IMG/VR virus record: IMGVR_UViG_3300025237_000013
Coordinates: 1 to 33,570 of that record
Source of the DNA: a virus
DNA length: 33,570 bases
Direction: 5' to 3' (one strand)
Part shown: positions 3,368-30,523 of the stretch, in pieces
How the letters are laid out: every line of letters begins with the position of its first letter
How positions within the stretch are numbered: the stretch's first letter is position 1
Translations under genes and position numbers: made by a program
Notes under the pieces: generated by a model
What the model was told of the DNA's origin: nothing
Database searches by the model: none
Seen by the model: only the letters and a program-made list of their open reading frames with translations

Positions 3368-3400
3368 ATTAATAAGACTATAAAAGTAGTTTTTGTTATA
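3368..3400 (-). promoter_or_regulatory. Late ECF-like promoter P3367 (tail operon)
   Basis: Minus-strand TATAAC (3400-3395), 16 nt, GTCTTATTAAT (3378-3368), then ATG of the tail operon. The same element occurs upstream of 26548, 29118 and 30491. The AAC...GTCT spacing is that of ECF-sigma promoters, and GTCT lies 11 to 8 nt before the ATG, which predicts a start at or next to the A of the ATG. Confidence 0.7.
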
Positions 3401-3404
3401 TCAC

Positions 3405-3436
3405 ATAAAAAACCCCACTAAATTAATAGTGAGGTT
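3405..3436 (-). terminator. Intrinsic terminator after the 62-aa gene
   Basis: Inverted repeat AACCCCACTA (3411-3420) / TAGTGAGGTT (3427-3436) with one mismatch and a 6-nt loop. On the minus strand it is followed by a T run, so it ends transcripts of 3460-3648 just before the late promoter P3367. Confidence 0.7.
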
Positions 3437-3459
3437 AGTAATTATATAAAATTTAATTA

Positions 3460-3648
3460 TTAAAAGAATCTTAATACATCTCTTTTTAATTCCATTGTTT
3501 GAATCCAATCGTTATTAGAATCAAATGCTGACCATTCTCTAGACTCTAAAGAACCATTGGTAATAGTACCAGCAAAAACATTATTTACAAAAACATCATA
3601 TTCTCCTGAACATTTTTTCTTAGTTGTTATTTTTTTTGATATTGTCAT
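3460..3648 (-). CDS. Small unknown protein, moron-like, with own promoter and terminator
   Basis: 62 aa, basic N-terminus (MTISKKITTKKK) then YDVFVNNVFAGTITNGS and W-containing REWSAFDSNNDW. I do not recognise it. The repeated 'vfVNNvFaGtI' strand pattern suggests a small beta-sheet protein. It is a one-gene unit: a host-type promoter (3678-3709) and a terminator (3405-3436) flank it. Its promoter and 5' leader are nearly identical to those of the plus-strand gene at 30608 (shared GTATAAGCAATAA and TAGAAATTATGACA), so the two were probably built from the same expression cassette. This suggests a moron-type accessory gene, or an early gene lying between terminase/chaperone and tail genes. Confidence 0.7.
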   Translation of the reverse strand: MTISKKITTKKKCSGEYDVFVNNVFAGTITNGSLESREWSAFDSNNDWIQTMELKRDVLRFF

Positions 3649-3677
3649 AATTTCTATTGTTTTAGTTATTGCTTATA

Positions 3678-3709
3678 CAAATATAAAGAACATATATATA
3701 CTGTGCAAG
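3678..3709 (-). promoter_or_regulatory. Host-type promoter for the 62-aa gene
   Basis: Minus strand: CTTG (3709-3706), 20 nt starting CACAGTA, TATATTTG (3685-3678). This matches the Bacteroidetes TTTG/TAnnTTTG consensus. The TTGCACAGTA extension recurs at 9854 and 18101. Confidence 0.75.
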
Positions 3710-3720
3710 TTTATTTGCAT

Positions 3721-4439
3721 TTATTTTTTTATTTGTTCTAACTCTTGTTTCTCTTTTGTAAACACCAACCATGTTAAACATGCGTGTAAACTTAGCTCTG
3801 TAACTTTGTCAAATCTCGTAAGGTCTCCATCAGCAATTGCGAAGATTGACGAATACCATCCCCACTTGCTCCCAAATTGTCCTCGTGCTGTAAGGTCTTC
3901 TGTATTTGATCCTCCAAATATGGCAGGGTAGCTTTCAACAAGTCGTTCGTTAAATGATAAAAAAAAACCATCGCTCCTTGAAATACTCCTAAAGGTGCTT
4001 GTAACATTTCACTTGCATACTTTTCTGATCCCTCGTACTTTTCTATTTGATATAAGCTATTCTTTTTAAAAGTTATAGGTCTATACATTACAGCCATAGC
4101 TCTATTAAAAGTATCTTCATCTTTAAAATAATCATCTAAATCTATCTTCTCACCTAAGCTAATAGCTTCTAGGTCTGGAATGAAACCGTAAGTAGTTCCG
4201 TTCATTGTAAAAGTAGGTTGAAACTTAGCTTCTTCATTTAATGCTTTTGTAATTATATTTACAGCTTCATCAAACTTACTAAAATCTATATCTCTAATGC
4301 CTTGATTAATATTACAAAATATCTCTACTGTTTTCCTATCTATGTAGTCTTGATTAGTTTTACCTTTAACAGCTTTTTGGTAATCGTTATACTGTTGTAT
4401 TGTAATCTCGTTTAGATTCTCTGGTATTGTTATCTCCAT
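3721..4439 (-). CDS. Tail assembly chaperone, long -1 frameshift product (GT-like)
   Basis: The first 160 codons of the gene starting at 4439 lead to MVFF, encoded over a run of nine T on the minus strand. Slipping back one base there opens a frame of 79 further codons, beginning LSFNERLVES and ending KEKQELEQIKK at TAA 3721-3723. That frame has no ATG of its own and is closed by a TGA about 16 codons upstream of the T run, so it can be reached only by frameshifting. Its content (SKWGWYSSIFAIADGD, LSLHACLTWLVFTKE) is protein-like and resembles a sequence type common in Bacteroidetes phage tail-chaperone loci. Length arithmetic fits exactly (239 aa from 719 nt with -1). A programmed frameshift is the norm for tail assembly chaperones (lambda G/GT). 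An indel in the sequence is the alternative. Confidence 0.6.
3792..4439 (-). CDS. Putative tail assembly chaperone, 0-frame product (G-like)
   Basis: 215 aa. Starts MEITIPENLNEITIQQYNDY and continues with a mostly helical body (GEKIDLDDYFKDEDTFNRAMAVMYRPI, LGVFQGAMVFFYHL), ending TLRDLTKLQS. The 'LG..QGAMVFFYHL..DLL' segment is typical of the tail-chaperone-like proteins of Bacteroidetes phages. It follows the 46-aa gene and terminase (4439/4440 abut). A T9 slip site at 3959-3967 permits a -1 shift to a 239-aa product. The role would be to load and protect the tape measure before tail polymerisation. It lies apart from the tape measure gene here, which weakens the synteny argument. Confidence 0.55.
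   Translation of the reverse strand: MEITIPENLNEITIQQYNDYQKAVKGKTNQDYIDRKTVEIFCNINQGIRDIDFSKFDEAVNIITKALNEEAKFQPTFTMNGTTYGFIPDLEAISLGEKIDLDDYFKDEDTFNRAMAVMYRPITFKKNSLYQIEKYEGSEKYASEMLQAPLGVFQGAMVFFYHLTNDLLKATLPYLEDQIQKTLQHEDNLGASGDGIRQSSQLLMETLRDLTKLQS
3957..3968 (-). other. Candidate -1 ribosomal slip site (GTTTTTTTTTAT)
   Basis: On the minus strand the zero-frame codons are GTT TTT TTT TAT. The run contains the classical T TTT TTT heptamer. A -1 slip enters the 79-codon frame that ends at 3721. Confidence 0.6.
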
Positions 4440-4580
4440 TTATAAACTCTTTAAAAATTCTACTATAATATCTTTACTTGGAATTTCTTTTGTATCAAGT
4501 ATATCTACATCTTTAACAGTTGTATTTATTTGTGTAGTTATAACACCATCTACTTCTATCATTACTCTTATTCTTTTCAT
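4440..4580 (-). CDS. Small unknown protein (46 aa) between terminase and chaperone
   Basis: 46 aa, MKRIRVMIEVDGVITTQINT through IIVEFLKSL. Its ATG overlaps the terminase stop by one base, and its stop abuts the ATG of the next gene (4439), so it is tightly coupled at both ends and very likely real. The amphipathic strand-turn-strand-helix layout gives no function. Confidence 0.7.
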   Translation of the reverse strand: MKRIRVMIEVDGVITTQINTTVKDVDILDTKEIPSKDIIVEFLKSL

Positions 4581-5812
4581 TATAGTACGTTGTATATTCC
4601 TTTGTTTTGATTTGCAAAGTAGTAAGCTAATACATATCTTATTGGATCAATCCTGTGATTGTAAGCATCAATAGGTACATTAGCTTTCTTACTTAACCAT
4701 ATATAATTGTTAAACTCTTTTATAATCTCTAAGCTATCCTTATCTACTATTATCTCAAAGTCTTGCATTAAACTAATACCACTTGTAATACTTCCTTGCC
4801 CTTTTATAGATGCTTCTATATTTAAACCTCTATCTTCTAACTCTGAAATAAGTCTTGGCTCTGCACTATCTCCTATTATTAGATTATCTTTAGCATGGTA
4901 CTTATTTAATGTATATATCTCGCTTGTGCTTAATCCTTGTTTTCCATAGCACTCTCTTACATATAACTTCTTTCTACTATTATCTATTGCTACTTCTATT
5001 AAGGTTGTAGGATCAATACTAAAACCGTAATCTTGTCCAAAGATACTACTAATATTTTGATTAAACTCTCCTATCTTCCAATTATTAAATATAACCCCAT
5101 CTGCTTTATCTAGCCAACCACCTAATACTATATGCTCATACTTCTTTGGATTGTTTAATTTAAGTTGATCAAAGTATTTTAGTATCTCATCTGGCACAAA
5201 CTCTAAGCAATCTAAGTAAGATGTATGTATATAACAAACGTTATCTTTAACACCATTAAACCCACTTGGTATTCCTCTAGATTCAAAGTACTTCTTATAT
5301 ATAAAGTGTTCTTTAGATGCAGGGTTTAATATAATAATCTTTATGTTATTGTTTGCATCTGATTTCTTATTACCTCTAATAGATAATAGTATCTTTGTGT
5401 ATATTTCTTCTTCTGTAAGTTCTTCTCCTTCTTCTAATACCCAACAGCTAAAATCTTTAAACCCTTTAACGTTTGCAGTTTGTATTCCACTACCAGCTTT
5501 TATACCTTTGAATACTATCTTAGCTTTGTTAAAGTTACTCTCTATTCTATTTGTTGATATTGTAAACTGATCTTCTAAGTTAAGCATATCAATCTTCTCT
5601 GTAACCTCTGGAAATATACTATCTCTACTTGAAGCAGAAGTATAACGAGTGTACAAAGTTCTATGTTCATATTTCAAAGCACCATTTACAACAGCAGTAG
5701 AAACAGCAAAAGACTTTTGCGAGAATCTACCACCTGTAACTATAAAGATATCTACATCTTTAGGTAAATTAAATAATGGTTTAAACTTCTTACTTATATT
5801 AATCTTCTCCAT
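4580..5812 (-). CDS. terL: Terminase large subunit
   Basis: 410 aa, the DNA-packaging motor ATPase and headful nuclease. N-terminal ATPase domain: Walker A-like TGGRFSQKS at residues 26-34 (Gln replaces the usual Gly before Lys-Ser), Walker B CWVLEEGEE at about 123-131, and coupling motif ILNPASKEH near 156. C-terminal RNase H-like nuclease: acidic residues in GQDYG (D261), IIGDSAEP (D315) and NHRIDPIRY (D389). This arrangement is that of the Terminase_3/XtmB family, and 410 aa is a normal length. It overlaps the small subunit gene by 14 nt. Acts on concatemeric DNA at the portal encoded at 24427-26208. Confidence 0.93.
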   Translation of the reverse strand: MEKINISKKFKPLFNLPKDVDIFIVTGGRFSQKSFAVSTAVVNGALKYEHRTLYTRYTSASSRDSIFPEVTEKIDMLNLEDQFTISTNRIESNFNKAKIVFKGIKAGSGIQTANVKGFKDFSCWVLEEGEELTEEEIYTKILLSIRGNKKSDANNNIKIIILNPASKEHFIYKKYFESRGIPSGFNGVKDNVCYIHTSYLDCLEFVPDEILKYFDQLKLNNPKKYEHIVLGGWLDKADGVIFNNWKIGEFNQNISSIFGQDYGFSIDPTTLIEVAIDNSRKKLYVRECYGKQGLSTSEIYTLNKYHAKDNLIIGDSAEPRLISELEDRGLNIEASIKGQGSITSGISLMQDFEIIVDKDSLEIIKEFNNYIWLSKKANVPIDAYNHRIDPIRYVLAYYFANQNKGIYNVL

Positions 5813-6065
5813 CTGTGAAGTTGATACTAGGTATTCCCATCTTATCTCCTTTAGTTGTAATGTCTACTTTTTGTTGAGGTTTGCCATAGAAATATTCAAA
5901 GAATAATTTAACCGCCCAATTCTGCTTTTTACCTAATCCATCTTTTAAAGCCTCTAGAGCCACTTTATTTAATGGCGTAAGGTTTTCTATTAGCTTCTGT
6001 TCTTCTGCCTTAGCTTTACGCCCAGCGTTCTTATTACCTCCGTTGTTCTTTCTTCCGTCTTCCAT
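5799..6065 (-). CDS. terS: Terminase small subunit-like protein
   Basis: 88 aa, very basic and Gly/Asn-rich N-terminus (GRKNNGGNKNAGRKAKAEEQKLIENL), then a helical segment ending VKLFFEYFYGKPQQKVD. The 'GRPK.EEQKLIE.L.....AL.AL..G...K...VKLFFEY.YGKPKQ' pattern is characteristic of short terminase small subunits in Bacteroidetes phages. It would recognise the packaging site and recruit the large subunit. It overlaps terL by 14 nt, which supports the pairing. Confidence 0.8.
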   Translation of the reverse strand: MEDGRKNNGGNKNAGRKAKAEEQKLIENLTPLNKVALEALKDGLGKKQNWAVKLFFEYFYGKPQQKVDITTKGDKMGIPSINFTDGED

Positions 6066-6088
6066 AAATCAATTAAAATCATTAATGA

Positions 6089-6289
6089 TTAATCTAATAC
6101 TTTATCACCATCTGTAATATAGCGTTTGTTTTCTTTTCTGTTATCATAAACAGTCTTCCCATTTTCTTGCTTTTCACATAAACATTCATCACCTCTTAAA
6201 GTAAATACTTCAAAGATTTCTAAGTCTTTAAACTTTTTTAAAGTTGCTGCTTTAAATGATTCTCTTTTTAATTCTTTCTTTTTTGCCAT
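6089..6289 (-). CDS. Small unknown basic protein (66 aa)
   Basis: 66 aa starting MAKKKELKRESFKAATLKKF, with a possible single strand pair around EIFEVFTLRGDECLCEKQENG containing a C-x-C. Not recognised. Seven bases separate it from the lipoprotein gene upstream, and it runs co-directionally into terS. Cytoplasmic by composition. Confidence 0.65.
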   Translation of the reverse strand: MAKKKELKRESFKAATLKKFKDLEIFEVFTLRGDECLCEKQENGKTVYDNRKENKRYITDGDKVLD

Positions 6290-6295
6290 TGTTAT

Positions 6296-6559
6296 TTAAT
6301 TTATTGTTTTACATTTAATAGTTTGTACTCTTACTTTATCACTACCAGATATTACTTGACCATCTTGTTCACACGAAGCATCATAAGATGTATAACCTAT
6401 ACTAAGTTTACTTGTTACAATTCCGTTATTATAAACAACCTTATATGTTCTAGTTTCTAATTCACATTCACATATTTCTTTATCTGGTAATTCTAATACA
6501 TCGTTTATACTACAACTTGTTAGTAGTAATATAATTAATAATTTTGTTAAGTTTTTCAT
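6296..6559 (-). CDS. Putative small lipoprotein
   Basis: 87 aa. N-terminal signal MKNLTKLLIILLLTSC with a lipobox LTSC (lipidated Cys16), then a short acidic linker and a beta-rich domain with four further cysteines (CECE, ASCEQD, TIKCK). It would be exported and anchored in the outer or inner membrane. Phage lipoproteins of this kind can act in superinfection exclusion or lysis, but nothing here decides which. It lies away from the lysis genes, so a role at the host envelope during infection is more likely than spanin function. Confidence 0.7.
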   Translation of the reverse strand: MKNLTKLLIILLLTSCSINDVLELPDKEICECELETRTYKVVYNNGIVTSKLSIGYTSYDASCEQDGQVISGSDKVRVQTIKCKTIN

Positions 6560-6565
6560 TTGTTT

Positions 6566-6715
6566 CTATCTTTTAATTTCTAAGTAAATATATCTAATAG
6601 CCCATATAATAGCAAATACAGTCCATAATACAGGGAAGCTATCTCCTGTTGAAGTGTTAGCCATTATTAAACATCCATAAGTTCCTGTAACTGCAATTAT
6701 TCTATCTTCTGTCAT
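6566..6715 (-). CDS. Small membrane protein (49 aa)
   Basis: 49 aa, MTEDRIIAVTGTYGCLIMAN then SFPVLWTVFAIIWAIRYIYLEIKR: one clear transmembrane segment near residues 27-43 followed by a basic tail, so the C-terminus is predicted to be cytoplasmic. It ends 6 nt before the lipoprotein gene. A TATATTTG -7 box lies upstream at 6738-6745 without a convincing -33. Function unknown. Confidence 0.6.
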   Translation of the reverse strand: MTEDRIIAVTGTYGCLIMANTSTGDSFPVLWTVFAIIWAIRYIYLEIKR

Positions 6716-6765
6716 TGTTTTAAGTTTTAATGTTTATCAAATATATATAATATAAATGATATAAC

Positions 6766-6999
6766 CTAATATATTAACTTATTATTTTTAAAGTCTATAT
6801 CTTTACAACCATATTTGTCTTTTACTTCTTCCGCTAATTCTTTTAGTTCGCTATTGTATTTATCAGCTGCTTGTGTTAAAGAATAGTTTTGCATAGAATT
6901 ATAACCTAATTGCAATACAGTACTTCCGATTGCATCAGATAGCTTTTTATATTGATCCTTTTCTTTTGTTGATAGTTTACTCTTTGGTTTCGTATTCAT
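6766..6999 (-). CDS. Small unknown helical protein (77 aa)
   Basis: 77 aa, MNTKPKSKLSTKEKDQYKKL, Lys/Tyr/Leu-rich, with predicted long helices (NSELKELAEEVKDKY) and a GCKDIDFKNNKLIY tail. Not recognised. It overlaps the upstream 133-aa gene by 23 nt, consistent with coupling. Confidence 0.6.
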   Translation of the reverse strand: MNTKPKSKLSTKEKDQYKKLSDAIGSTVLQLGYNSMQNYSLTQAADKYNSELKELAEEVKDKYGCKDIDFKNNKLIY

Positions 7000-7378: not shown

Positions 7379-7580
7379 ACTTTCGTAGTTCGTTATCTAT
7401 TTCTTTTTCTGTCTCCCAAATAATTATACTATCTTTTAATGTATCGTAATTATCTGGATTTTTTAATTTAAGTAACCTATTATACTTCTCTGTTTTTCTA
7501 TCACTTTTTTCAATGCGTAATTTTATTTCTTCTATATCATCTTCATCTGTAAGTAGCTCTCCATTTTTAAAGTATTCCAT
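7359..7580 (-). CDS. Small charged unknown protein (73 aa)
   Basis: 73 aa, MEYFKNGELLTDEDDIEEIK onward, highly charged, with two probable helices and a short strand pair at the start (YFKNGELLTDE). Overlaps the sigma factor gene by 14 nt and the 133-aa gene by 20 nt, so it is probably translated in concert with them. No family recognised. Confidence 0.6.
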   Translation of the reverse strand: MEYFKNGELLTDEDDIEEIKLRIEKSDRKTEKYNRLLKLKNPDNYDTLKDSIIIWETEKEIDNELRKYESKRT

Positions 7581-8106
7581 CTAATTCTTTCTTTATAGTA
7601 TTCCTTGCATTTTTTATAGTATTGAATATAGAGCTTAAACTAATACCTGTATCTCTACTTAATGCTCTCATAGTAACACCAGAGTAATGTAGATTTAAAA
7701 CCTTTCTGTCATACCAGAGCAATGTATCTTTAGCTACAACCAATCTATCTATCTTATTACTTGCTTCTACTTCAGACTTCATACAGAATAAGTTAGTGTC
7801 CTCTACTTCATAAGACGTAAATTCAAGATTTTGTTTATTTAAGTAATCCACTAAATCTTCTATATAAACTTCATTATCTCTTTTCTTCTTTAGTTTCCTA
7901 AAGTAATCAAAGTATAAGTTTCTAAGAACAAAGTAAGCATATATATCAATAGACTCTATTAGTGTCTTTTTGTTTGCCAAGTGCATTTTAATATACATAT
8001 CTTGTACTAAGTCTTCTGCTACTGATTTGTTAGCTCCTAATCTTTTTACGACTATAATCCAATCGTTATGTTTATTATATAAATCTAAGAGGATATCCTT
8101 ATCCAT
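7567..8106 (-). CDS. ECF-like sigma-70 family RNA polymerase sigma factor
   Basis: 179 aa. Region 2 spans about residues 30-72, with AEDLVQDMYIKM (2.1-2.2) and YAYFVLRNLYFDYFRKLKKK (2.3-2.4, -10 recognition). A short acidic linker follows, then region 4 at about 130-176, with the helix-turn-helix GVTMRALSRDTGISLSSIFN leading into KNARNTIKKEL. Regions 1.2 and 3 are absent, as in ECF sigma factors. It would redirect host RNA polymerase. The obvious candidate targets are the four shared AAC-n16-GTCT late promoters at 3368, 26549, 29119 and 30492. The family call is strong; the promoter link is inference. It overlaps the next gene by 14 nt and shares one base with the gene before it. Confidence 0.85.
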   Translation of the reverse strand: MDKDILLDLYNKHNDWIIVVKRLGANKSVAEDLVQDMYIKMHLANKKTLIESIDIYAYFVLRNLYFDYFRKLKKKRDNEVYIEDLVDYLNKQNLEFTSYEVEDTNLFCMKSEVEASNKIDRLVVAKDTLLWYDRKVLNLHYSGVTMRALSRDTGISLSSIFNTIKNARNTIKKELDGIL

Positions 8107-8309
8107 TAATGTTTAAATGCTAGTGATAAGTATTCCTTTAGCTCTGGTGTTTCTACTAAAGTTAATACAACACCACCTAATAAAATATTATAACACCCCT
8201 CTACATCTGCTGGTCTATAACAACCTTTTATATCAAACGGATCAAAGTTAAATTTAACATAAGAACCATCTGGATCGTATTCATCTTGCGTATATAATAA
8301 TGCTGTCAT
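8106..8309 (-). CDS. Small unknown protein (67 aa), first gene before the sigma factor
   Basis: 67 aa, acidic, MTALLYTQDEYDPDGSYVKF with GCYRPADVEGCYNILLGGVV, two Cys. Not recognised. Its stop shares a base with the sigma factor ATG, so it leads that transcription unit. A TATATTTG -7 box at 8334-8341 (minus) lies about 25 nt upstream of the ATG, without a good -33 element. Confidence 0.65.
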   Translation of the reverse strand: MTALLYTQDEYDPDGSYVKFNFDPFDIKGCYRPADVEGCYNILLGGVVLTLVETPELKEYLSLAFKH

Positions 8310-8371
8310 ATTTGCTTACTTATTTATTTAAAGCAAATATACACAAAATATATTTAAGTTATAGAAATAAT

Positions 8372-19105: not shown

Positions 19106-19208
19106 ATTCCTTTTATATTGTTAGTTAAGTATCAATATATAGGTTTATAATTAACAGATTAATCGTTACATTAAGTAAATGTGATTTTTGTAACAATATA
19201 ATTGTACT

Positions 19209-19257
19209 TAACGGTAAGTGTAACACATCGTTTTAATGTGTGTTATATATTGTTATC
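19209..19257 (+). repeat. attC-like palindrome S2
   Basis: Left arm TAACGGTAAGTGTAACACAT, tip CGTTTTA, right arm ATGTGTGTTATATATTGTTA followed by TC. Its right box GTTATCTA (19252-19259) is complementary to TAGATAAC at 19450-19457, the 3' box of the unit that follows. The 103 nt between S1 and S2 hold no credible gene. Confidence 0.7.
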
Positions 19258-19279
19258 TAACTTTTTAAAATTTTAAACA

Positions 19280-19456
19280 ATGACTAATACAAATAAATAC
19301 AAGATTGAGAAATTAGGAATGTACTGGCATCTTCTACGACTGCACTATGTAGGGTGGTCTGTCTTTAAAAGAAAAGTATGGTTAACAGAGTTTCCTTATT
19401 ATTGGCATAAAGAAGATGCTGACAAGGCACTTAAAGAAATTTTAAATTGTAGATAA
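19280..19456 (+). CDS. Cassette protein 1, unknown (58 aa)
   Basis: 58 aa, MTNTNKYKIEKLGMYWHLLR, Trp/Tyr-rich (LHYVGWSVFKRKVWLTEFPY, YWHKEDADKAL). Not recognised. The gene fills the unit from GTTATCTA (19252) to TAGATAAC (19450), and its stop codon TAA lies inside the 3' box. It is on the opposite strand to the flanking phage operons. Host origin or cassette origin is likely; function unknown. Confidence 0.65.
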   Translation: MTNTNKYKIEKLGMYWHLLRLHYVGWSVFKRKVWLTEFPYYWHKEDADKALKEILNCR

Positions 19457-19584
19457 CGTATTTAGATAAGATTTTATTTTTAACAACAGTACAAAAACAT
19501 AATAAAGAATGAGTATAGCATATAAAGATGACAGTAGCGGTGAATACGCTAAGAGTAAAAATTTAATTTTATCTAGTGTTACCC
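19450..19584 (+). repeat. attC-like palindrome S3 (right arm inside an ORF)
   Basis: Left arm TAACGTATTTAGATAAGAT (from 19454), right arm AATTTTATCTAGTGTTA ending in box GTTACCC (19578-19584). The arms pair over TAGATAAGAT/ATTTTATCTA. The intervening 90 nt hold the start of the 62-aa ORF. Confidence 0.6.
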
Positions 19585-19697
19585 AACGTAGTGACCTTTT
19601 AAGTTTTATTAAAGAGGTTGCTGAATGGGATAAAGAATACAGCAGTACAAGAATTAAATTAAGGGCAAAAGAGTTGGTTAAACTTAATTGTGGGTAA
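19509..19697 (+). CDS. Cassette protein 2, possible fusion across a recombination box (62 aa)
   Basis: 62 aa, MSIAYKDDSSGEYAKSKNLI, then SSVTQRSDLLSFIKEVAEWD and a basic end LKLNCG-type terminus (KLNCG). Codons 24-26 lie on the box GTTACCCA, complementary to the 3' box TGGGTAAC (19691-19698), which also carries the stop codon. Residues 24-62 therefore form the cassette proper, and residues 1-23 come from the preceding attC-like site. The V-T/S-Q-R-S-x-LL stretch recurs in the protein at 20023. The true start could be downstream; no better ATG exists. Confidence 0.5.
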   Translation: MSIAYKDDSSGEYAKSKNLILSSVTQRSDLLSFIKEVAEWDKEYSSTRIKLRAKELVKLNCG

Positions 19698-19786
19698 CGT
19701 ATTCGTATATGATTAGTACGACAAAAAACAAATATTAATAAACAAATAAGACATAGTAAGTATTAATTATATACGTTGTTATGCAC
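19692..19786 (+). repeat. attC-like palindrome S4
   Basis: Left arm TAACGTATTCGTATATGATT (from 19695), right arm ATTATATACGTTGTTA ending in box GTTATGCAC (19778-19786). About 50 nt of AT-rich sequence lies between the arms. Confidence 0.7.
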
Positions 19787-19796
19787 TTTTAAAATT

Positions 19797-19961
19797 ATGG
19801 CAAATATAAATATAAAAGAAATAAGTAACGATATAATAGAAATACTTGGCGTTACTTATTATACTGAAAGTTATTTAAAAGAAATGATGTTAAGGGAAAG
19901 GTATAAAGGACTATTAGAAGGAAGGCAAGTTTTTGTAGCTGAATTTAAGGAGATATTTTAA
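19797..19961 (+). CDS. Cassette protein 3, unknown (54 aa)
   Basis: 54 aa from the ATG at 19797, MANINIKEISNDIIEILGVT then YYTESYLKEMMLRERYKGLL and EFKEIF; mostly helical. Starting at this ATG rather than an upstream TTG keeps it wholly between the boxes GTTATGC (19778) and GCATAAC (19966-19972), which are exact complements. Function unknown. Confidence 0.6.
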   Translation: MANINIKEISNDIIEILGVTYYTESYLKEMMLRERYKGLLEGRQVFVAEFKEIF

Positions 19962-19965
19962 TTGG

Positions 19966-20158
19966 GCATAACGTATTCGTATAAAGAAAGTAAATATAAT
20001 TTAAACTTAAATATTAAAAGAAATGAAAACAGAACTTTTTAAATTGATTGAGAGAAACTCGGCAGATATAGAGGAATCTTCTAAAAACGGAATAATAGCT
20101 CATCATGTAGATGTTGATGAACTAGTAAATGATTTATTTACTTTATGCGGTGTTAGCC
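19966..20158 (+). repeat. attC-like palindrome S5 (long; right arm inside an ORF)
   Basis: Left GCATAACGTATTCGTATAAAG, right ATTTACTTTATGCGGTGTTA ending in box GTTAGCC (20152-20158). Pairing is weaker than in S3 and S7, and the loop (about 145 nt) carries the first 43 codons of the 101-aa ORF. Confidence 0.45.
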
Positions 20159-20328
20159 AACGAAGTAAACTGTTAAAGGCAGAGGATAAAGATATGTCTT
20201 TTAATGATTACATACAGAAGTATTTTGAAGAACCTAAAGTTGAATTAACTTATAAAAGTAAAAAGAACAAAAATGTTATGACTGAAACCGAGTTGATAAA
20301 ATACTACAAAAGAGCTATGTGCCTTTAA
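20023..20328 (+). CDS. Cassette protein 4, possible fusion across a recombination box (101 aa)
   Basis: 101 aa. N-terminal part MKTELFKLIERNSADIEESS...DVDELVNDLFTLCG, then VSQRSKLLKAEDKDMSFNDY and a Lys-rich C-terminal half. Val44-Ser45 lie on box GTTAGCCA (20152-20159), complementary to the 3' box TGGCTAAC (20332-20339). In another frame the end reads NCG-stop, like the 62-aa cassette protein, so a small frameshift may have altered the original terminus. Function unknown. Confidence 0.6.
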   Translation: MKTELFKLIERNSADIEESSKNGIIAHHVDVDELVNDLFTLCGVSQRSKLLKAEDKDMSFNDYIQKYFEEPKVELTYKSKKNKNVMTETELIKYYKRAMCL

Positions 20329-20331
20329 TTG

Positions 20332-20391
20332 TGGCTAACGTTTAGTATATGAGCCGTTTTTTTCTATGGCTTATATACATTGTTGTAGCAC
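20332..20391 (+). repeat. attC-like palindrome S6
   Basis: Best-formed site. TGGCTAACGTTTA, then an 11-bp stem GTATATGAGCC / GGCTTATATAC (one G-T pair, 12-nt loop), then ATTGTTGTAGCAC. The right box GTTGTAGCAC is at 20382-20391. Confidence 0.75.
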
Positions 20392-20413
20392 GTTAATTTT
20401 AAAACAAATAATT

Positions 20414-20632
20414 ATGATAACAAATTGGAATGACAAGATAACCTTTGGAAAATTTAAAGGTGATACGGTAAAAGAAGTTTTTGAATATGATGCAACTTAC
20501 TTATGGTGGGCGATGATGAATACAGATAATACAAACTTTGCAGAAGAAGTGAAAAATGGTATTCAAAAACGAACCGAAGAAATAAATGCTGAAAAGTATG
20601 AGGATTTATCTTGGGGTGATTTCTGCACTTAA
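20414..20632 (+). CDS. Cassette protein 5, ExoX-like C-terminal domain (72 aa)
   Basis: 72 aa from the ATG at 20414, MITNWNDKITFGKFKGDTVK then EVFEYDATYLWWAMMNTDN. The 'FGKFKG.T..EV...D..YL.W' pattern is that of the small ExoX-like C-terminal (DUF3820-like) domain, found alone or at the end of DnaQ-type exonucleases and thought to bind nucleic acid. The unit is bounded by exact 10-nt complements GTTGTAGCAC (20382) and GTGCTACAAC (20634). An upstream start at 20366 would run through the right arm of S6 and was not used. Confidence 0.7.
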   Translation: MITNWNDKITFGKFKGDTVKEVFEYDATYLWWAMMNTDNTNFAEEVKNGIQKRTEEINAEKYEDLSWGDFCT

Positions 20633-20633
20633 T

Positions 20634-20766
20634 GTGCTACAACGTGTTGTATATGGAATGTTGCGTAAAATTAGACTTAAATTAATAGATATGAAAAAAA
20701 TAAAAGGTATTAGAATACTTAAAGGAAATATAGATAATAAGCAATTTTCTATATACGGTGTTAGCA
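20634..20766 (+). repeat. attC-like palindrome S7 (right arm inside an ORF)
   Basis: Left GTGCTACAACGTGTT then GTATATGGAA; right TTCTATATACGGTGTTAGC. The GTATATGGAA/TTCTATATAC stem pairs with one G-T. Box GTTAGCATTA (20760-20769) lies in the coding frame of the 80-aa ORF. Confidence 0.65.
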
Positions 20767-20933
20767 TTAGTTTTTTTGCCAAGTTGTTTAAACCTCACTT
20801 AATTTGGGATTGGTACGACTTTGGTTTAATGCTGAAAATTAATAAGCAAAACAATATTGGAAACTATCACTTTGCAATAGACATACAAATAGCATGGCTA
20901 AACCTTTGGGTACAGTGTTGGCAAAAACATTAA
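20691..20933 (+). CDS. Cassette protein 6, possible fusion across a recombination box (80 aa)
   Basis: 80 aa from the ATG at 20691, MKKIKGIRILKGNIDNKQFS, IYGVSISFFAKLFKPHLIWD, WYDFGLMLKINKQNNIGNYH, then AIDIQIAWLNLWVQCWQKH; aromatic and hydrophobic. Val24-Ser25 lie on box GTTAGCATTA, complementary over 10 nt to TAATGCTAAC at 20931-20940. The stop codon TAA overlaps that 3' box. Residues 1-23 are encoded inside S7. Function unknown; an interfacial or membrane-associated protein is possible. Confidence 0.55.
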   Translation: MKKIKGIRILKGNIDNKQFSIYGVSISFFAKLFKPHLIWDWYDFGLMLKINKQNNIGNYHFAIDIQIAWLNLWVQCWQKH

Positions 20934-20934
20934 T

Positions 20935-20982
20935 GCTAACAATATTATAAATGGCGTTTTAATGCCTTTTATGATAAGTTAT
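20935..20982 (+). repeat. attC-like palindrome S8, end of the array
   Basis: Left GCTAACAATATTATAAATGGC, tip GTTTTAAT, right GCCTTTTATGATAAGTTAT. It contains GGCGTTTTAATGCC, related to the tips of S1 and S2. Confidence 0.65.
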
Positions 20983-24426: not shown

Positions 24427-26208
24427 TTAATTTTTATAGTTTGGGTGGTGTCCATTGTTCGGCATATCTTTAGGTGCTTTTTCTGCATCTGTATATTCTT
24501 TTCCTTTAGGTGTGTAACTTTTAGGAATACTATCTACTTCTTTACCTTTAGATATTTGCTTTTCTGTTTTAGATTTTAGTCTATAAAGATTCTCATTAAA
24601 GAAATGCCCACAATTTACTCCACCTTTGTATCTGAATAAACTATAATTCTGTCCTTTATGTCCAAATGATTTATTAACACCACTAAAACTAGCTTTATCT
24701 ATATCCTCTTTTCTATAAACAACACCTCTACCTGTTTTAGCCATCATATTAGTACAGAAACTTCTTGATTTTCCACTACTGTATTTTTGTGCATATTCGT
24801 AACGTACTTTATAAAAAGATTTATCTAAAAAACTTTCTTTAGTTGGTGCTGATTTTACAACGTCAGCTAAATTTTCTGATTTTAATTCTTTTATAAGTCT
24901 GTTAGCCCAATGATCTACATTTTCTGCATATTCGTTGTATTCTCTTTTTTCTACTAACTCCCAATCATCAGACATTACATCTTCATTTAATCCAACCTCA
25001 ATCTCATTAAATTGGTCATCTGTTAAATCTACTTCTGAACTTAAACTCAATTCTGCATCTACTCCTGTTTCTTCTTCTATTGCTTCTTCATCTACAACAC
25101 CATCAACATCTATAAATTCTAATGGTTTTAAAGTTTTGAAATATAGTTTTAAGCTAATGTCATTAAAAGCTAAAATTTTATCTAATCCTCTAATAATTTG
25201 GTTTTGAAAAGGTTTTATAATTTGATTATTAAATAATGCAAAAGCATTCTGTAACTCCTCTGCGTTGTTTCCTAAGCCACTATTATCTTTAACACCTATT
25301 AATATAGGATTTGTAACCTTATGTGCTCTTAGTAACTTGTCTGTTGCTTCATCGCTAAGAAATTGGTATTGTTGAGAAGCATCATTAAGTTGTAGGTTCT
25401 CAATAGTTGCAGCACTATCTTTATTTTTATTAAAAGCTACTATAATTTTACTTCTACTTTTAGCTCCACCCCATTTTTTTACAATGTCAGCTTCAATTTG
25501 GTTTTGTGTCTTTTTATCTGGCACTCCATTATTAAAGTTTAAGAATGTAGATGCAGTCATACCATTTTGTAAATTATTGATATGAAAAGAACTCATTTCA
25601 TCTTCCATTTCAGCATATACAACTCCAGATTGATAATCACAAGGTGAAAAGTAAAAAGAACCAGCAGCATAAGGCTGAATGTATAGTATTTCACTTTCTT
25701 TACTAGACATTCCAAAAGCTGGTATTCTTGTAGGTACTATTTTATCGTTTTCAAAGTCAATAGAGTGATAATATGCTTCTATTTCACCGTCTTCATTTGC
25801 TTTTTCTGGTGCTAAATAATTTACAGGTATGTGAAAAACCTCTACAATCTTATCATGTTTCTTATTATATATAACTTGTAAGGCAAATTTACCTAGTTTT
25901 TTGTAATCTTTTACAATATTTTCTATCTCAATTTCCTTAAATAAGCTAATCATTTGAGCGTATTGCTCTGGTTTCTTAGCAGAATCTAAAGCAGATAAGC
26001 CTTTTCCATATATTAAATTAGAAATACCATCTATAATACTCGCATTTGTAGGACTTTCGTTGTATGCTTCTATTAAATACTTGAAATAACTGTTATTTTC
26101 ACCCCATGTTACCCATTGTTTATTGATAGATTCCTCCACAATAGGTTTAATATAGCTAGAAAGCTCAATTACAGATATGTTATTTTCTTTTTTTATCGGT
26201 TGTTTCAT
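24427..26208 (-). CDS. Portal protein with C-terminal Cys/His-containing extension
   Basis: 593 aa. Residues about 1-370 follow phage portal proteins: SSYIKPIVEESINKQWVTWG, NNSYFKYLIEAYNESPTNAS, GKGL, VFHIPVNYLAPEK, and the stem/crown region GNNAEELQNAFALFNNQIIK. After an acidic linker (about 372-405) an additional domain of about 140 aa follows (VRYEYAQKYSSGKSRSFCTN, MMAKTGRGVVYRKEDIDKAS, then RYKGGVNCGHFFNENLYRLK). This extension is known at the end of several Bacteroidetes phage portals; its C, H and Y residues could bind metal. The portal forms the DNA entry ring contacted by terminase. Two bases separate it from the gene upstream. Confidence 0.82.
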   Translation of the reverse strand: MKQPIKKENNISVIELSSYIKPIVEESINKQWVTWGENNSYFKYLIEAYNESPTNASIIDGISNLIYGKGLSALDSAKKPEQYAQMISLFKEIEIENIVKDYKKLGKFALQVIYNKKHDKIVEVFHIPVNYLAPEKANEDGEIEAYYHSIDFENDKIVPTRIPAFGMSSKESEILYIQPYAAGSFYFSPCDYQSGVVYAEMEDEMSSFHINNLQNGMTASTFLNFNNGVPDKKTQNQIEADIVKKWGGAKSRSKIIVAFNKNKDSAATIENLQLNDASQQYQFLSDEATDKLLRAHKVTNPILIGVKDNSGLGNNAEELQNAFALFNNQIIKPFQNQIIRGLDKILAFNDISLKLYFKTLKPLEFIDVDGVVDEEAIEEETGVDAELSLSSEVDLTDDQFNEIEVGLNEDVMSDDWELVEKREYNEYAENVDHWANRLIKELKSENLADVVKSAPTKESFLDKSFYKVRYEYAQKYSSGKSRSFCTNMMAKTGRGVVYRKEDIDKASFSGVNKSFGHKGQNYSLFRYKGGVNCGHFFNENLYRLKSKTEKQISKGKEVDSIPKSYTPKGKEYTDAEKAPKDMPNNGHHPNYKN

Positions 26209-26209
26209 A

Positions 26210-26548
26210 TTATGGTGTTACAAATTCGTTATCTCTTGCAGCAGTTTCTACAAAATCGTTGTTATTAATCACATATTTCTCGTAATCTACTTGGTCAGTA
26301 CAAAATATAGAACCTCTATACATCAAAACAGTACCGTTTAATACTTCATAGTTGTAATAAGTACCCTCTATTAATGTAAATGCTTGTGCTATTGTAGCCT
26401 GTTCATTAGTATAAGCAGCGGTTACGGTATAACTAACTGTTATATTTGTGTCTTCGCTAGTAACCTTTAAATTCAAAGAAGAAAGTACTGTACTTCTAGG
26501 TATAAAAATAAGGTTTTGAGCAGTAGTTACAGTTGTTAGTATGTTCAT
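26210..26548 (-). CDS. Small virion protein, first gene of the portal-lysis unit (112 aa)
   Basis: 112 aa, beta-rich: NLIFIPRSTVLSSLNLKVTS, NITVSYTVTAAYTN, EGTYYNYEVLNGTVLMYRGS IFCTDQVDY. The 'IPR......L.L' start and 'Y..EV......YRG.IFCT.Q' block recur in small proteins next to portal genes in flavobacterial phages. Likely a minor head or neck protein. Its ATG abuts the late element GTCTTATTAAT, so the mRNA is probably leaderless. Confidence 0.6.
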   Translation of the reverse strand: MNILTTVTTAQNLIFIPRSTVLSSLNLKVTSEDTNITVSYTVTAAYTNEQATIAQAFTLIEGTYYNYEVLNGTVLMYRGSIFCTDQVDYEKYVINNNDFVETAARDNEFVTP

Positions 26549-26581
26549 ATTAATAAGACTAAATTTTAAGTATTTGTTTTA
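26549..26581 (-). promoter_or_regulatory. Late ECF-like promoter P26548 (portal to lysis)
   Basis: Minus strand TAAAAC (26581-26576, variant of TATAAC), 16 nt, GTCTTATTAAT (26559-26549), then ATG. The -35 element overlaps the -33 element of the divergent plus-strand promoter at 26573. Confidence 0.65.
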
Positions 26582-26852: not shown

Positions 26853-26867
26853 TAAACATAAATAAAA

Positions 26868-26895: not shown

Positions 26896-26923
26896 CTCAA
26901 TGAAAAATCCAAAACACTATTTC

Positions 26924-27472
26924 TTATGGTGTGATTTGAGATGAACTAATAGTTGATCCACTTGTTAAAGCATCAGTCAAACTAGTAGTTATATAGTTAG
27001 CCCATATTTTCTCTTGCCCAGATATCACTAAAGTATATCCGTTAAAATCTCCTAAAGCACCACCTACATTTGCATTACCATCTAAAATCTCACAACCGTA
27101 CTCTAACCCTGCAATCATAAAATCACCAGCGTTAGTTTCAACAACAACGTGAGGTCTACCATAGATTAATAATTTTAATTCTTTGTTAGTTAAAACATCT
27201 GTTTTATTAAGTGTTACATTTAATGTTTGTTCTGCAAAAGTAGTTCCGTTCTCTCTTGAAGATGTCATCTTTTGTTCAAAGGTAGATACACCTTTTAAAT
27301 CATATTTGAACCAAGTAGCAGTATCACTAGCAAAAGTAGTAATCTCGTCTGTTTTAGTTCCGTCATAGGTAATCGCACCAAGAGAGCCATGATCTGCAAA
27401 GTAAATAGCTTTTAAACCAGATACTGCATCCTTACATCCTATTGCTCTACCAATTGTTAAATCACAAGCCAT
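26924..27472 (-). CDS. Major tail (tube) protein
   Basis: 182 aa, MACDLTIGRAIGCKDAVSGL KAIYFADHG, then TWFKYDLKGVSTFEQKMTSS RENGTTFAEQTLNVTLNK, ELKLLIYGRPHVVVETNAGD. The order 'GR...CKD..GG.KA.YF....' , 'SFEQ...SSRENGT.F.EQ.L..TL.K' and 'YGRPH.VVE' is typical of tail tube proteins in Bacteroidetes siphoviruses. It would polymerise around the tape measure. It follows the capsid gene across a terminator-like hairpin, which may set its level relative to capsid. Confidence 0.75.
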   Translation of the reverse strand: MACDLTIGRAIGCKDAVSGLKAIYFADHGSLGAITYDGTKTDEITTFASDTATWFKYDLKGVSTFEQKMTSSRENGTTFAEQTLNVTLNKTDVLTNKELKLLIYGRPHVVVETNAGDFMIAGLEYGCEILDGNANVGGALGDFNGYTLVISGQEKIWANYITTSLTDALTSGSTISSSQITP

Positions 27473-27492
27473 ATTATTATATTTTTTTTATA

Positions 27493-27528
27493 AAAAAAAG
27501 GTAAGTGAATAAACACCCACCTTTTTTT
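27493..27528. terminator. Hairpin between capsid and tail tube genes
   Basis: AAAAAAAGGT...GTG / CAC...ACCTTTTTTT with a 2-nt internal bulge and a 6-nt loop, flanked by A and T runs. No recognised promoter follows, so the tail tube gene depends on read-through; this may be a partial terminator. Confidence 0.65.
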
Positions 27529-27548
27529 GTTATTAATTTGTTTTATTA

Positions 27549-28472
27549 TTATGCGTATCTTACAATTTCAGCTCCGTAACCGAAAGCAACTGCTGCTGTA
27601 AATTTCATGATTACTCTAACATTGTCATCTCCTAATGTAGCAGAAGTGTCAATCACTTGCACTTGCTCGATATCGTTTCCTATATTTGTTCCGAAAAACA
27701 AGTTAGAAGAACGTGCAGCCATCATATCACTTGAAGGTAAACCTTTCGCTAAGAATAAGTTAATACCATTAAAAGCTAATTGTGTTGGCTTACCATCTTG
27801 GTAACCACCTTGATGATAGTCAGCAGCTCCTAAAGCTGTTACATAATGTCTGTAAACATTTGTAGGAACATAGATATTTAAATCTTCTTCCATTCTGATT
27901 GTGTCTGGGATAGCTTCTTCCACTTTTTTCAATTCTGCAATCACATTTGTAGCGCTTATAGTAGTTCCTGTTACATCAATAACATCACCATCAGCTAAAG
28001 CTAATACCATTAAGCCATCATACTGTCCAGCTGTTGCATTAACACCTTGCCAAATGTTGCTTTCGTTTCTTGTAGCTACTTGTTTTACAACTTGCTCAAC
28101 TAAGTAAGATTGAAAATTAGGTGCTAAAGAATCACTTGCTCCGTAACCGTTTTGTAAAGCATTCCAAGTTGCTTGGTAATCTGCTTTACAAAGCTCTAAG
28201 TTTACCTTAAAGTTTTCTGGTGCTAATGTTTTATCACTTAAAGTGATTGTTGAAGTATCTGAAAAATCACAAGACGCGTTCTTTACTAAGTCTGCTGATA
28301 AATCCAAAGTTTGAATTTCCCATTTGTAATCGATACCTGGTACTACTGTTAAACCTCCGTTTGCAATAGTAGATGCTCCTAATAGAGCTGCTGATATAAA
28401 GCTATCTGAAGCCTTACCTGCGTAATTTTGACTAACTGTTGAAGTTGTCGCTAATTTAATTTCTGAACTCAT
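27549..28472 (-). CDS. Major capsid protein
   Basis: 307 aa. The N-terminal region (ASDSFISAALLGASTIANGG) is followed by a beta/alpha body, LVEQVVKQVATRNESNIWQG (spine-helix-like), MEEDLNIYVPTNVYRHYVTA, FNGINLFLAKGLPSSDMMAA and the end VIMKFTAAVAFGYGAEIVRY. Order and length resemble HK97-fold capsid proteins of Bacteroidetes phages. The gene starts 17 nt inside the scaffold-like gene and is followed by a strong hairpin. Position after protease and scaffold genes is diagnostic. Confidence 0.82.
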   Translation of the reverse strand: MSSEIKLATTSTVSQNYAGKASDSFISAALLGASTIANGGLTVVPGIDYKWEIQTLDLSADLVKNASCDFSDTSTITLSDKTLAPENFKVNLELCKADYQATWNALQNGYGASDSLAPNFQSYLVEQVVKQVATRNESNIWQGVNATAGQYDGLMVLALADGDVIDVTGTTISATNVIAELKKVEEAIPDTIRMEEDLNIYVPTNVYRHYVTALGAADYHQGGYQDGKPTQLAFNGINLFLAKGLPSSDMMAARSSNLFFGTNIGNDIEQVQVIDTSATLGDDNVRVIMKFTAAVAFGYGAEIVRYA

Positions 28473-29118
28473 TTTTATTTGTTTTATAAAAGTTATTTAA
28501 CATATCGGTAACTCTATCTCCTGTAGTCTTTCTACGATTCGCTCCGATTATGTTCATTTTTATTTCTTCTGTTTCTTTAGCTTCTGGAGAAGAATTAATC
28601 TTCTTAGATGCTGGTACTGATTCTAATTCTGTTTTTAAATTTTCTACTGATGAAAGCAATTCAGCCTTTTCAGTTTCGTGCTTATTTAAAATTTCTTCAT
28701 CGTGAGATGTAAGCATTGATTTAATTTCGTTTATAGCATTTTCAAAATCTGCTACTGTAACAAATTCCGATGCTTGTTCAACTTCTTCTGGTGCTTCATC
28801 TTCAGCTGGTGCATCACCTACTGATTCAATAACCCCTTCTTCAGCAACTACTAATACTCTACCATCCTCTAAAGTATAATCACCAACTGGTACTGCTACT
28901 CTTTCGTCTTCTGAAACGATAAACACATCTTGTCCTGCTTCAAATGATTCTGCTTCTAATACAGTTCCATTTTCTAAAGTTTGTGCTTCTAATTTAGTTT
29001 CAACTTCTTTAGCTTCTACAACTTCTTCGGTTTTAACTTCCTCTAATTTAGTTTCTTCGACTTCTTTCGATAATCCAAGAATGTCCATTATCTTTTTTAT
29101 TTTACTGTTTGCTTCCAT
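28456..29118 (-). CDS. Scaffold-like protein preceding the capsid gene
   Basis: 220 aa, extremely Glu-rich. Residues 1-60 are helical (SKIKKIMDILGLSKEVEETK, repeats of EE/VE), the middle is an acidic beta segment (VPVGDYTLEDGRVLVVAEEG), and residues about 120-165 form a probable coiled coil (EILNKHETEKAELLSSVENL). The end, SPEAKETEEIKMNIIGANRR KTTGDRVTDMLNNFYKTNKN, is basic, as expected for a capsid-binding tail. This composition and the position directly before the capsid gene identify a scaffolding protein. It starts at a leaderless-type late promoter. Confidence 0.72.
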   Translation of the reverse strand: MEANSKIKKIMDILGLSKEVEETKLEEVKTEEVVEAKEVETKLEAQTLENGTVLEAESFEAGQDVFIVSEDERVAVPVGDYTLEDGRVLVVAEEGVIESVGDAPAEDEAPEEVEQASEFVTVADFENAINEIKSMLTSHDEEILNKHETEKAELLSSVENLKTELESVPASKKINSSPEAKETEEIKMNIIGANRRKTTGDRVTDMLNNFYKTNKNEFRN

Positions 29119-29151
29119 ATTAATAAGACTATTTAAAATTTGTTTGTTATA
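29119..29151 (-). promoter_or_regulatory. Late ECF-like promoter P29118 (scaffold-capsid)
   Basis: Minus strand TATAAC (29151-29146), 16 nt, GTCTTATTAAT (29129-29119), then ATG. Confidence 0.7.
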
Positions 29152-29157
29152 TTTTCG

Positions 29158-29925
29158 TTAAACTGATGTTATTTTGTAAAACCATCCTGTTACTACAATA
29201 GATGCGTTTTGTGGTGATGAGAATCTAAATCGTGCTGGAAAGTTTCTTGTATTATCACTTCCTATATACATCTCATAAAATGCAATAACAGGTGTTCCTG
29301 TTGCAGCAGTCTTATAATAAACGTGAGACATTGATTTTTCAAAAGATGGTGATCCACCCTCTGCGAAACTAAATAGTAATCTAATTTCTTGTGCTGCTAG
29401 GTTTGTTATAGTTAAATCAACTCTAAAGGTAATAGTATCACCAACTTTTAAACTTGTAAAGTCAAATTTATTTGTGTCTGGTTTCCATAGCGTGTCCTTT
29501 GAATCTGGATTGTATGAATCTGTTTGAGTACCTAGAGCGTTGTTAGTTAAATAAGTTGTAGTTGCATTCCCTACGTGTGTTATAGGAGTTGATGCTGTTG
29601 CTGTATCGCTAGCATCAAACCAATATGTTTTAGTAAATTCTGCGCCTAAAGCGGCGCTAGACTTTCCCAAGCTAAGACGCGCAAAATCTCTAAATGTTGA
29701 ATTAGAGAAACTAGCGTCAGAAGCATTTACGGCTTCAGATACAAGAACTGAATACAATAATCTATTTACTTTGTTATTTATGGAATAAAAAGAAATCTTA
29801 TTATTTGTATTTAATTCGTTTGATCTAAAATATACAATTCTTGCTGGTATTTCAAACTCAACTACACTTGTATCGGTGTCAGTTACTACTAAAGATGAGT
29901 TTATTATTTCAATTTTTTTTGACAT
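29158..29925 (-). CDS. Putative head fibre or decoration protein
   Basis: 255 aa, beta-rich, with no catalytic motif. N-terminal half: MSKKIEIINSSLVVTDTDTS VVEFEIPARIVYFRSNE. C-terminal half: LKVGDTITFRVDLTITNLAA, FYEMYIGSDNTRNFPARFRF, ending ASIVVTGWFYKITSV. The C-terminal pattern (strands ending with 'v.v.GW.YKI') resembles TNF-like or fibre-head domains on virion surfaces. It lies between protease and scaffold, a place where decoration or head-fibre genes occur. The ATG overlaps the protease stop by one base. Confidence 0.5.
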   Translation of the reverse strand: MSKKIEIINSSLVVTDTDTSVVEFEIPARIVYFRSNELNTNNKISFYSINNKVNRLLYSVLVSEAVNASDASFSNSTFRDFARLSLGKSSAALGAEFTKTYWFDASDTATASTPITHVGNATTTYLTNNALGTQTDSYNPDSKDTLWKPDTNKFDFTSLKVGDTITFRVDLTITNLAAQEIRLLFSFAEGGSPSFEKSMSHVYYKTAATGTPVIAFYEMYIGSDNTRNFPARFRFSSPQNASIVVTGWFYKITSV

Positions 29926-30491
29926 TATTCTAGTATTATTTTTTTAATTTGTTCCAATATAGATTCATCTTTAGATTGCTCTATTGCTTTATCTGCGAAA
30001 AACCCTTCTATGCTAAATCCTTTTATCTCTCCGCTCTTTGCTTTCTGATAAATTTCTTCATTATCTACTTTCATAGATACCATCCAAGTTCCAACAGGTA
30101 CGCTTAAACCGTAGTGATTAGATTTATCTTTAATAGTGTCTTCTACTATCCAAGATTCTACAACTGTAATTCCTTCTATCTTTGTAGCGTGTTCTAAAGT
30201 GCTTTCTTTTTGATGTCCTTTCTTTAGGAATAATTCACTACCTTTCCTTACTGTTGACTTGCTAAAGAAGATATGAAACTCCTTACCTTCTTTTACCCTA
30301 AGAATTGCTTTATCTGGAATTAATGCAGCACCAAGTAAGATTCTTTTCTCTTTATCTACCTCTACTAACTTAACTTCTTTGCTTAACATTAAGAAATCAG
30401 ACTCTATTGCAGGGTTTTCAACTAAAGAAATAGCGTTGATACCGCCTAATTCTTCGTCTTCATCTATAAACATTTCAATTATATCGTTCAT
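29925..30491 (-). CDS. Prohead protease, XkdF-like (Peptidase S78_2 type)
   Basis: 188 aa. Features of XkdF-type phage proteases: acidic N-terminus ending GGINAISLVENPAIESDF, strand RILLGAALIPDKAILRV, EFHIFFSKSTVRKGSELFLK, GITVVESWIVEDTIKDKSNH YGLSVPVGTWMVSMKVDNEE, and KSGEIKGFSIEGFF. 'ES(W)IVEDT.KDKS...G..VP.GTW...MKV.......V..GE.KGFSIEG' is the signature of the family. It should mature the capsid by cleaving scaffold. It leads the head unit under promoter P30491. Confidence 0.85.
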   Translation of the reverse strand: MNDIIEMFIDEDEELGGINAISLVENPAIESDFLMLSKEVKLVEVDKEKRILLGAALIPDKAILRVKEGKEFHIFFSKSTVRKGSELFLKKGHQKESTLEHATKIEGITVVESWIVEDTIKDKSNHYGLSVPVGTWMVSMKVDNEEIYQKAKSGEIKGFSIEGFFADKAIEQSKDESILEQIKKIILE

Positions 30492-30523
30492 GTTAATAAG
30501 ACTTATATTTTTTATTTGTTATA
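30492..30523 (-). promoter_or_regulatory. Late ECF-like promoter P30491 (head protease unit)
   Basis: Minus strand TATAAC (30523-30518), 15 nt, GTCTTATTAAC (30502-30492), then ATG. Confidence 0.68.

Follow-up and report, generated by a model that had tools for sequence, protein, structure and literature searches.

Start-codon-fused late promoters probably read by a phage-encoded ECF-like sigma factor in a large, almost wholly uncultured phage family

The window analyzed in this work is the whole stretch of 33,570 nucleotides of the IMG/VR record IMGVR_UViG_3300025237_000013. This contig represents a nearly complete genome in permuted form, the open reading frames (ORFs) left open at its ends being parts of one gene of ~680 aa, of which ~33 codons are missing compared to the relative G001. 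The phage family in which it falls (see below) is large and has hardly any cultured members. The genes on which the argument is built are listed here.

2903..3367, minus strand: 154-aa gene, late head 1, of the tail unit (PHROG 30964 and synteny)
4580..5812, minus strand: terminase large subunit, in the run downstream of the sigma gene (Pfam Terminase_3, E 2.8e-31)
7567..8106, minus strand: ECF-like sigma factor of 179 aa, with region 2 at residues ~3-76, a linker at 77-111, and region 4 at ~112-175
24427..26208, minus strand: portal protein (PHROG 33693, E 8.9e-95)
26210..26548, minus strand: 112-aa gene, late head 2, with homologues in relatives, located before the portal
27549..28472, minus strand: capsid-like virion structural protein (PHROG 11320 and 1623), used as a control gene without the motif before it
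28456..29118, minus strand: scaffold-like protein, late head 3 (C-terminal part of PHROG 24921, position before the capsid)
29925..30491, minus strand: head maturation protease, late head 4 (Pfam Peptidase_S78_2, E 1.8e-15; PHROG 24921 and 3017)

We infer the names capsid and scaffold from PHROG matches together with gene order. Exactly four exact copies of the 14-mer GTCTTATTAAYATG were found in the 33.6-kb window, all in the minus strand and all ending at the ATG of a long ORF (3367, 26548, 29118, and 30491), while only 0.01 were expected from dinucleotide shuffles and none of 100 shuffles reached four. The units placed 3' of these sites are structural, namely the protease, the scaffold and capsid-like genes, the 112-aa gene with the portal, and the tail. 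Each copy is the proximal part of a bipartite putative promoter.

3365..3400, minus strand: putative late promoter 1, TATAACAAA, N13, GTCTTAT, TAAT, ATG; heads the tail unit (gene 2903-3367); identical in G001
26546..26581, minus strand: putative late promoter 2, TAAAACAAA, N13, GTCTTAT, TAAT, ATG; gene 26210-26548 followed by the portal (24427-26208); homologous heads in ~80 relatives
29116..29151, minus strand: putative late promoter 3, TATAACAAA, N13, GTCTTAT, TAAT, ATG; scaffold-like gene 28456-29118 followed by the capsid-like gene (27549-28472); homologous heads in relatives
30489..30523, minus strand: putative late promoter 4, TATAACAAA, N12, GTCTTAT, TAAC, ATG; protease gene 29925-30491; homologous heads in relatives

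When the upstream sequences of the four heads were aligned, AACAAA and AGTCTTATTAA were invariant and the spacer between them was variable, so that the -35 block extends beyond the TAWAAC described in an earlier note on this DNA. The distance from TATAAC (or TAAAAC) to GTCT is 16, 16, 16, and 15 nt, and the G of GTCT stands 11 nt ahead of the A of the ATG in all four cases. The pattern TAWAAC-N14-17-GTCTTA gave four matches in the window and none for the reversed control, and AACAAA-N12/13-GTCTTATTAA also gave four, versus 0.00 expected. The earlier note had reported this motif at the four ATGs and nowhere else. The motif, its coordinates, its spacings, and the 11-nt distance of GTCT were confirmed by the exact matches, the shuffles, and the reversed control; its restriction to these sites holds for the exact fused form, found only four times, but not for AACAAA-N13-GTCTTAT, which has a fifth copy at 7835-7810. 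TATAAC-N15/16-GTCTTA has the features of an ECF-type promoter (a -35 with AAC, a spacer of ~16 nt, and a -10 of the GTC/CGT type), and so does the CGTTA-type -10 of relatives. An Rfam search gave no match.

The protein encoded at 7567..8106 was likewise recognized in the earlier note as an ECF-like sigma factor with regions 2 and 4, an assignment now backed by a Pfam region 2 match above the cut-off, by a profile of 49 relatives, and by the predicted fold. The match to PF04542 (Sigma70_r2) has E 1.4e-6 and 28.5 bits (cut-off 24), the same family being matched by 25 of the 49 sigma relatives, and the window sigma also matches PHROG 1740 (RNA polymerase sigma factor). No Pfam match to region 4 was obtained for the window sigma alone, while PF08281 (region 4) matches 6/49 relatives. 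The profile made from the 49 relatives matches Mycobacterium tuberculosis SigL and Bacillus subtilis SigW across both regions, and was aligned via SigL to residue 164. An AlphaFold2 model (mean pLDDT 69) consists of two helical domains and a disordered linker (pLDDT <50 at residues 73-112), and its best Foldseek matches are ECF sigmas. With VIA-align 2, residues 1-82 superpose on an ECF region 2 (5uxx_C; Z 10.4, 2.1 Å over 81 residues) and residues 113-179 on the region 4 of sigmaE bound to -35 DNA (2h27_D; Z 9.0, 2.1 Å over 67 residues), at ~15-20% identity to solved ECF members. The predicted protein has therefore the make-up of an ECF factor: region 2, a helix-turn-helix in region 4, and only a linker with regions 1.1 and 3 absent.

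Two further elements surround the sigma gene.

7810..7835, minus strand: candidate fifth promoter, AACAAA-N13-GTCTTAT, located within the sigma gene and 5' of the run toward the terminase, with no fused ORF
8334..8341, minus strand: host-type -7 element TATATTTG, ahead of the early run that contains the sigma gene, its G standing 25 nt before the ATG at 8309

The consensus class of TATATTTG is what we take to be the Bacteroidota primary sigma type. Similar TAnnTTTG-like elements precede small and replication genes, including the sigma run, with ~15-30 nt to the ATG. Gene content, and the presence of these host-type elements before the other units, suggest that the four structural units are expressed late. 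With the fifth site included, the AACAAA/GTCTTAT pair gave five matches in the window versus 0.01 expected. This intragenic site may drive the terminase run of the window, a lead suggested by comparable sites in relatives: in phage P12024S a fused CGTTAATT site directly follows the sigma gene and precedes gp35 with the terminase run, and in G025, G027, G006, and G037 promoter-like sites lie in the interval from sigma to terminase or inside these genes.

The family is large. Searches of IMG/VR recovered at least 546 stretches encoding the sigma factor and at least 587 encoding the capsid, both family sizes being lower bounds. The only cultured relatives found were the Nonlabens phages P12024S and P12024L. 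P12024S was reached via a portal search; its gp33, annotated with sigma region 2, is ~26% identical to the window sigma, and tblastn against cultured phages, with the window sigma or a clade C sigma as query, gave no match at E 0.01. Iterated profiles revealed a late gene set common to ~30 genomes. In most lineages, the homologous late heads carry [A/G]CAAA at ~30 nt and a -10 of their own ~11-12 nt before the ATG.

Window and G001: -10 GTCTTATTAATATG (GTCTTAT type)
G007-G019: -10 GTTTTAT
G002, G024-G027, G035, G040: -10 TTATATATTAATATG
G006, G020, G028, G033, G034, G037, G041, G043: -10 CGTTATA
G029, G031: -10 CGTATATAA
G032: -10 CGTTTATA
P12024S: -10 CGTTAATA

In P12024S, which has CGTTA-type sites at its late heads, the CGTTAATA promoter has five exact sites versus 0.00 expected, and seven with a looser pattern. 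Altogether, the bipartite element was found at a fixed register before homologous and non-homologous late heads in ~100 related contigs, and hundreds of related uncultured viruses appear, judging from their sequences, to share the design with lineage-specific -10 passwords. Within the family, fusion to the ATG is frequent without being universal. In G029 and G031 (scaffold heads) and in clade C the element stands 13-16 nt further from the ATG at some heads, the -35/-10 spacing being kept in G029 despite the shift; because of these displaced copies, we regard the element as a promoter in its own right for which fusion is not obligatory. Counting against a uniform design, L330/L337/L345, L362, and G039 have heads without a clear-cut promoter.

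The fixed register is evident when the heads are compared as classes. A [AG]CAAA starting at -34 to -26 was found in 39 of 85 portal-unit heads (shuffled mean 1.5) and in 42 of 89 protease heads (shuffled mean 6.0), and -10-like words concentrate at -12/-11 in all three head classes; in the control upstreams they are present at all in only 2/107 (capsid) and 2/106 (p182). Over the last 17 nt before the ATG, non-homologous heads are more alike within than between genomes (z 8.6, 11.5, and 8.2), while non-head control genes gave z ≤2.6; the comparison was rerun without the protease-scaffold pairs of G020, P12024S, and L373, in which both are a single gene. The ATG-proximal part could also be conceived as a translation-initiation signal or as an operator palindrome, TATTAATA, instead of a -10: it abuts the ATG, TATTAATA is self-complementary, and an A at -3 aids initiation in Flavobacterium (PMC6847099). 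Against both stand the fixed-spacing pairing with AACAAA ~30 nt upstream, the elements that move off the ATG in G029, G031, and clade C, and the non-head genes (capsid, p182, p166, second tail genes), which lack the element in most genomes; the palindrome, besides, is not conserved in relatives. Given the pairing, the shifted elements, and this lack of conservation, both readings were rejected as highly improbable. A pyrimidine before the ATG was also considered as a mark of late heads and discarded as non-discriminating, as it is found too at p182, a non-head gene after a terminator.

Taking the element as a promoter, the question is which factor reads it. The earlier note attributed the reading to the phage sigma and proposed to look for co-conservation of motif and sigma in related phages, considering that the motif in phages lacking the gene would speak against it. 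Motif and sigma were found together in every informative genome, and the -10 shifts with region 2. Selecting relatives by capsid and ignoring the sigma, the latter was present in 20 of the 20 near-complete records among the matches listed, so that no sigma-less relative was seen among them. Starting from the motif, a scan of IMG/VR with AACAAA-N10-14-GTCTTATTAA recovered at least 119 stretches, a sample; among the matches listed there were eight exact ATG fusions in seven stretches, all of them family contigs, and the sigma was visible in the fetched DNA of four of these seven, in a lineage 24% identical to the window sigma. In partial Mantel tests on 45 genomes, to be read as indicative and not as proof since the genomes are related, -10 similarity was associated with sigma distance given capsid distance (r -0.46, p 0.001) and with region 2 given region 4 (r -0.28, p 0.001), and showed no association with region 4 given region 2. 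Its association is stronger with sigma residues 36-70 than with 1-35. In 27 dereplicated genomes the results for the sigma and for region 2 persist, and control genes gave no association. The -35 did not covary with region 4, as expected if this element is nearly invariant.

These data also bear on the possibility that a host ECF sigma reads the promoters and that the phage sigma serves some other purpose. Several ECF sigmas are present in flavobacterial hosts, as is an ECF motif whose -10 box is CGT (PMC9723704). However, the -10 and region 2 of the phage sigma vary together even when capsid distance is accounted for (a change of host by lineage could be involved) and the phage sigma is present in every near-complete member found, which makes the host factor a very unlikely reader. 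Co-occurrence, covariation with region 2, and the restriction of motif-first matches to the family support the attribution made in the earlier note, and on these grounds the late promoters are very probably recognized by the phage sigma.

We propose that the host primary holoenzyme transcribes the early genes, the sigma gene among them. The 179-aa factor would then join the host core RNA polymerase, its region 4 reading AACAAA (-35) and its region 2 GTCTTAT (-10), and would start the tail, protease, scaffold/capsid, and portal units, perhaps also the terminase run from the site inside its own gene. Transcription would begin at the A of the ATG or within ~2 nt of it, giving leaderless or near-leaderless late mRNAs to be translated in hosts where Shine-Dalgarno pairing is not used. 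As a whole, we consider this explanation likely. The ECF -10 (GTC/CGT) occupies approximately positions -12 to -10, and if this A of the start codon is counted as +1, the CGT of the relatives falls at ~-12 to -10, the GTC of the window being one base closer. Because the GTC stands 9-11 nt before this A, and because the distance is fixed across unrelated genes, the start is most likely at or near it, and leaderless or near-leaderless late mRNAs are, with some reserve, the reading that this register favors. Leaderless mRNAs are a minority (5.5% of mRNAs) in Flavobacterium psychrophilum (PMC9723704), which counts against it.

A less likely though quite conceivable arrangement is promoter recognition by the sigma combined with a start a few nucleotides off, or with processing of the 5' end, which would leave short leaders or a start inside the ORF. 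The starts of the phage 7-11 sigma scatter 6-9 bp from the element (PMC8948821), and some heads of relatives clearly have leaders of 13-16 nt. On the other hand, the distance from -10 to ATG is held at ~11-12 nt across non-homologous genes and lineages, as if the start were the A. Moreover, an A-rich zone upstream of the ATG has been described for Flavobacterium johnsoniae (PMC6847099), and the leadered genes in these genomes have such a zone at -14 to -11 while the late heads lack it, although there the -10 fills that space.

Phage late sigmas with bipartite promoters are already known. The late sigma of phage 7-11, SaPh711_gp47, has experimentally mapped promoters, GTAAtg-(16)-aCTA (PMC8948821). 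Like the window sigma it is a phage factor with region 4 whose bipartite late promoters, with a 16-nt spacer, precede structural units; it joins the host core, as we propose here. In place of GTAAtg/aCTA, for which the text consulted describes no start-codon fusion (PMC8948821), the window has AACAAA/GTCTTAT abutting the ATG. Furthermore, 7-11 infects Salmonella whereas the host here is flavobacterial, and here the -10 differs among the lineages of a very large family. The distant relative phiEco32 has gp36, a phage sigma that turns on middle and late genes from tAATGTAtA promoters and recognizes another sequence, located at comparable places in the genome; it has no region 4 homology and single-element promoters, in contrast to the two elements and region 4 of the window (PMC8948821). 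The likeness to both switches lies in a phage sigma whose cognate promoters stand ahead of late structural genes, the pairing here being drawn from covariation, and as to sequence kinship only general PHROG 1740 matches were seen.

Group 4 ECF factors (Escherichia coli sigmaE, M. tuberculosis SigL, B. subtilis SigW) also have regions 2 and 4 only, and promoters with an AAC-type -35, a GTC/CGT-type -10, and a ~16-nt spacer, while the window sigma is phage-encoded, very divergent, and apparently a temporal switch. The F. psychrophilum SM6 motif, an ECF motif with a CGT -10 box, is of comparable type (PMC9723704). The late promoters of phiKZ have a TATG element at the start that resembles the ATG context, but they depend on a multisubunit phage polymerase, with a start at G, no -35/-10 pair, and no sigma (PMC7618050). 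Closest are P12024S and P12024L (Inhavirus), with similar portal, capsid, terminase, and tail genes, the gp33 sigma in the same place, and AAAACAAA plus CGTTAATA promoters abutting late ATGs; they differ in the -10, and their record has no annotated promoters. In the open-access literature searched, we found no paper describing this design. What is new is the phage group, the abutment to start codons at such a scale, and the lineage-wise divergence of the -10 with sigma region 2.

Overall, these results make the transcription program readable in a group of Bacteroidota phages that is large and nearly uncultured, one cultured phage being available as a test case, and they supply dozens of natural sigma/-10 pairs as data on the way in which ECF region 2 determines the -10. 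If leaderless initiation is confirmed, leaderless mRNAs would be the source of the structural proteins, which are the most abundant products of a phage, in a phylum that does without Shine-Dalgarno pairing. We lean slightly toward the full version, in which an abundant family of flavobacterial phages has merged promoter and start codon, the -10 password of each lineage is set by its own sigma, and leaderless mRNAs serve to express the structural genes. If this is true, one factor would set both when late translation can begin and from which base.

The end-open ORFs at the two extremes of the window (1-1273 and 32893-33570) are pieces of a single gene, about 680 aa long; the window holds a permuted genome from which about 100 nt are missing. 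Another gene is the following:

29158-29925, a 255-aa gene located between the protease and scaffold genes

It matches PHROG 2725 'acetyl-CoA acetyltransferase' (E 2.9e-14), and no counterpart was found in the other genomes compared. On the plus strand, at 19200-20940, runs a series of small ORFs oriented opposite to nearly all other genes and separated by imperfect inverted repeats (e.g., GCATAACGTATTCGTATA / TATACGTTGTTATGC), which looks like a phage-borne integron-type cassette array.

Late heads of another design, with TTTTTAAATAAAA... upstream of the ATG, were seen in a sub-lineage (contigs L330, L337, L345, and L356). No clear GTC/CGT -10 was found at these heads, which possibly follow another specificity with a short leader. 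A capsid locus of the window's phage family, with a CGTTATA head, appears in CP070803, a contig labelled as archaeal chromosome (Woesearchaeota MAG), likely through mis-binning or misassembly.

Within the sigma gene itself lies a fifth match to AACAAA-N13-GTCTTAT in the window (7810-7835, minus strand), shared by the relative G001. From this candidate site, the run containing the terminase could be expressed late.
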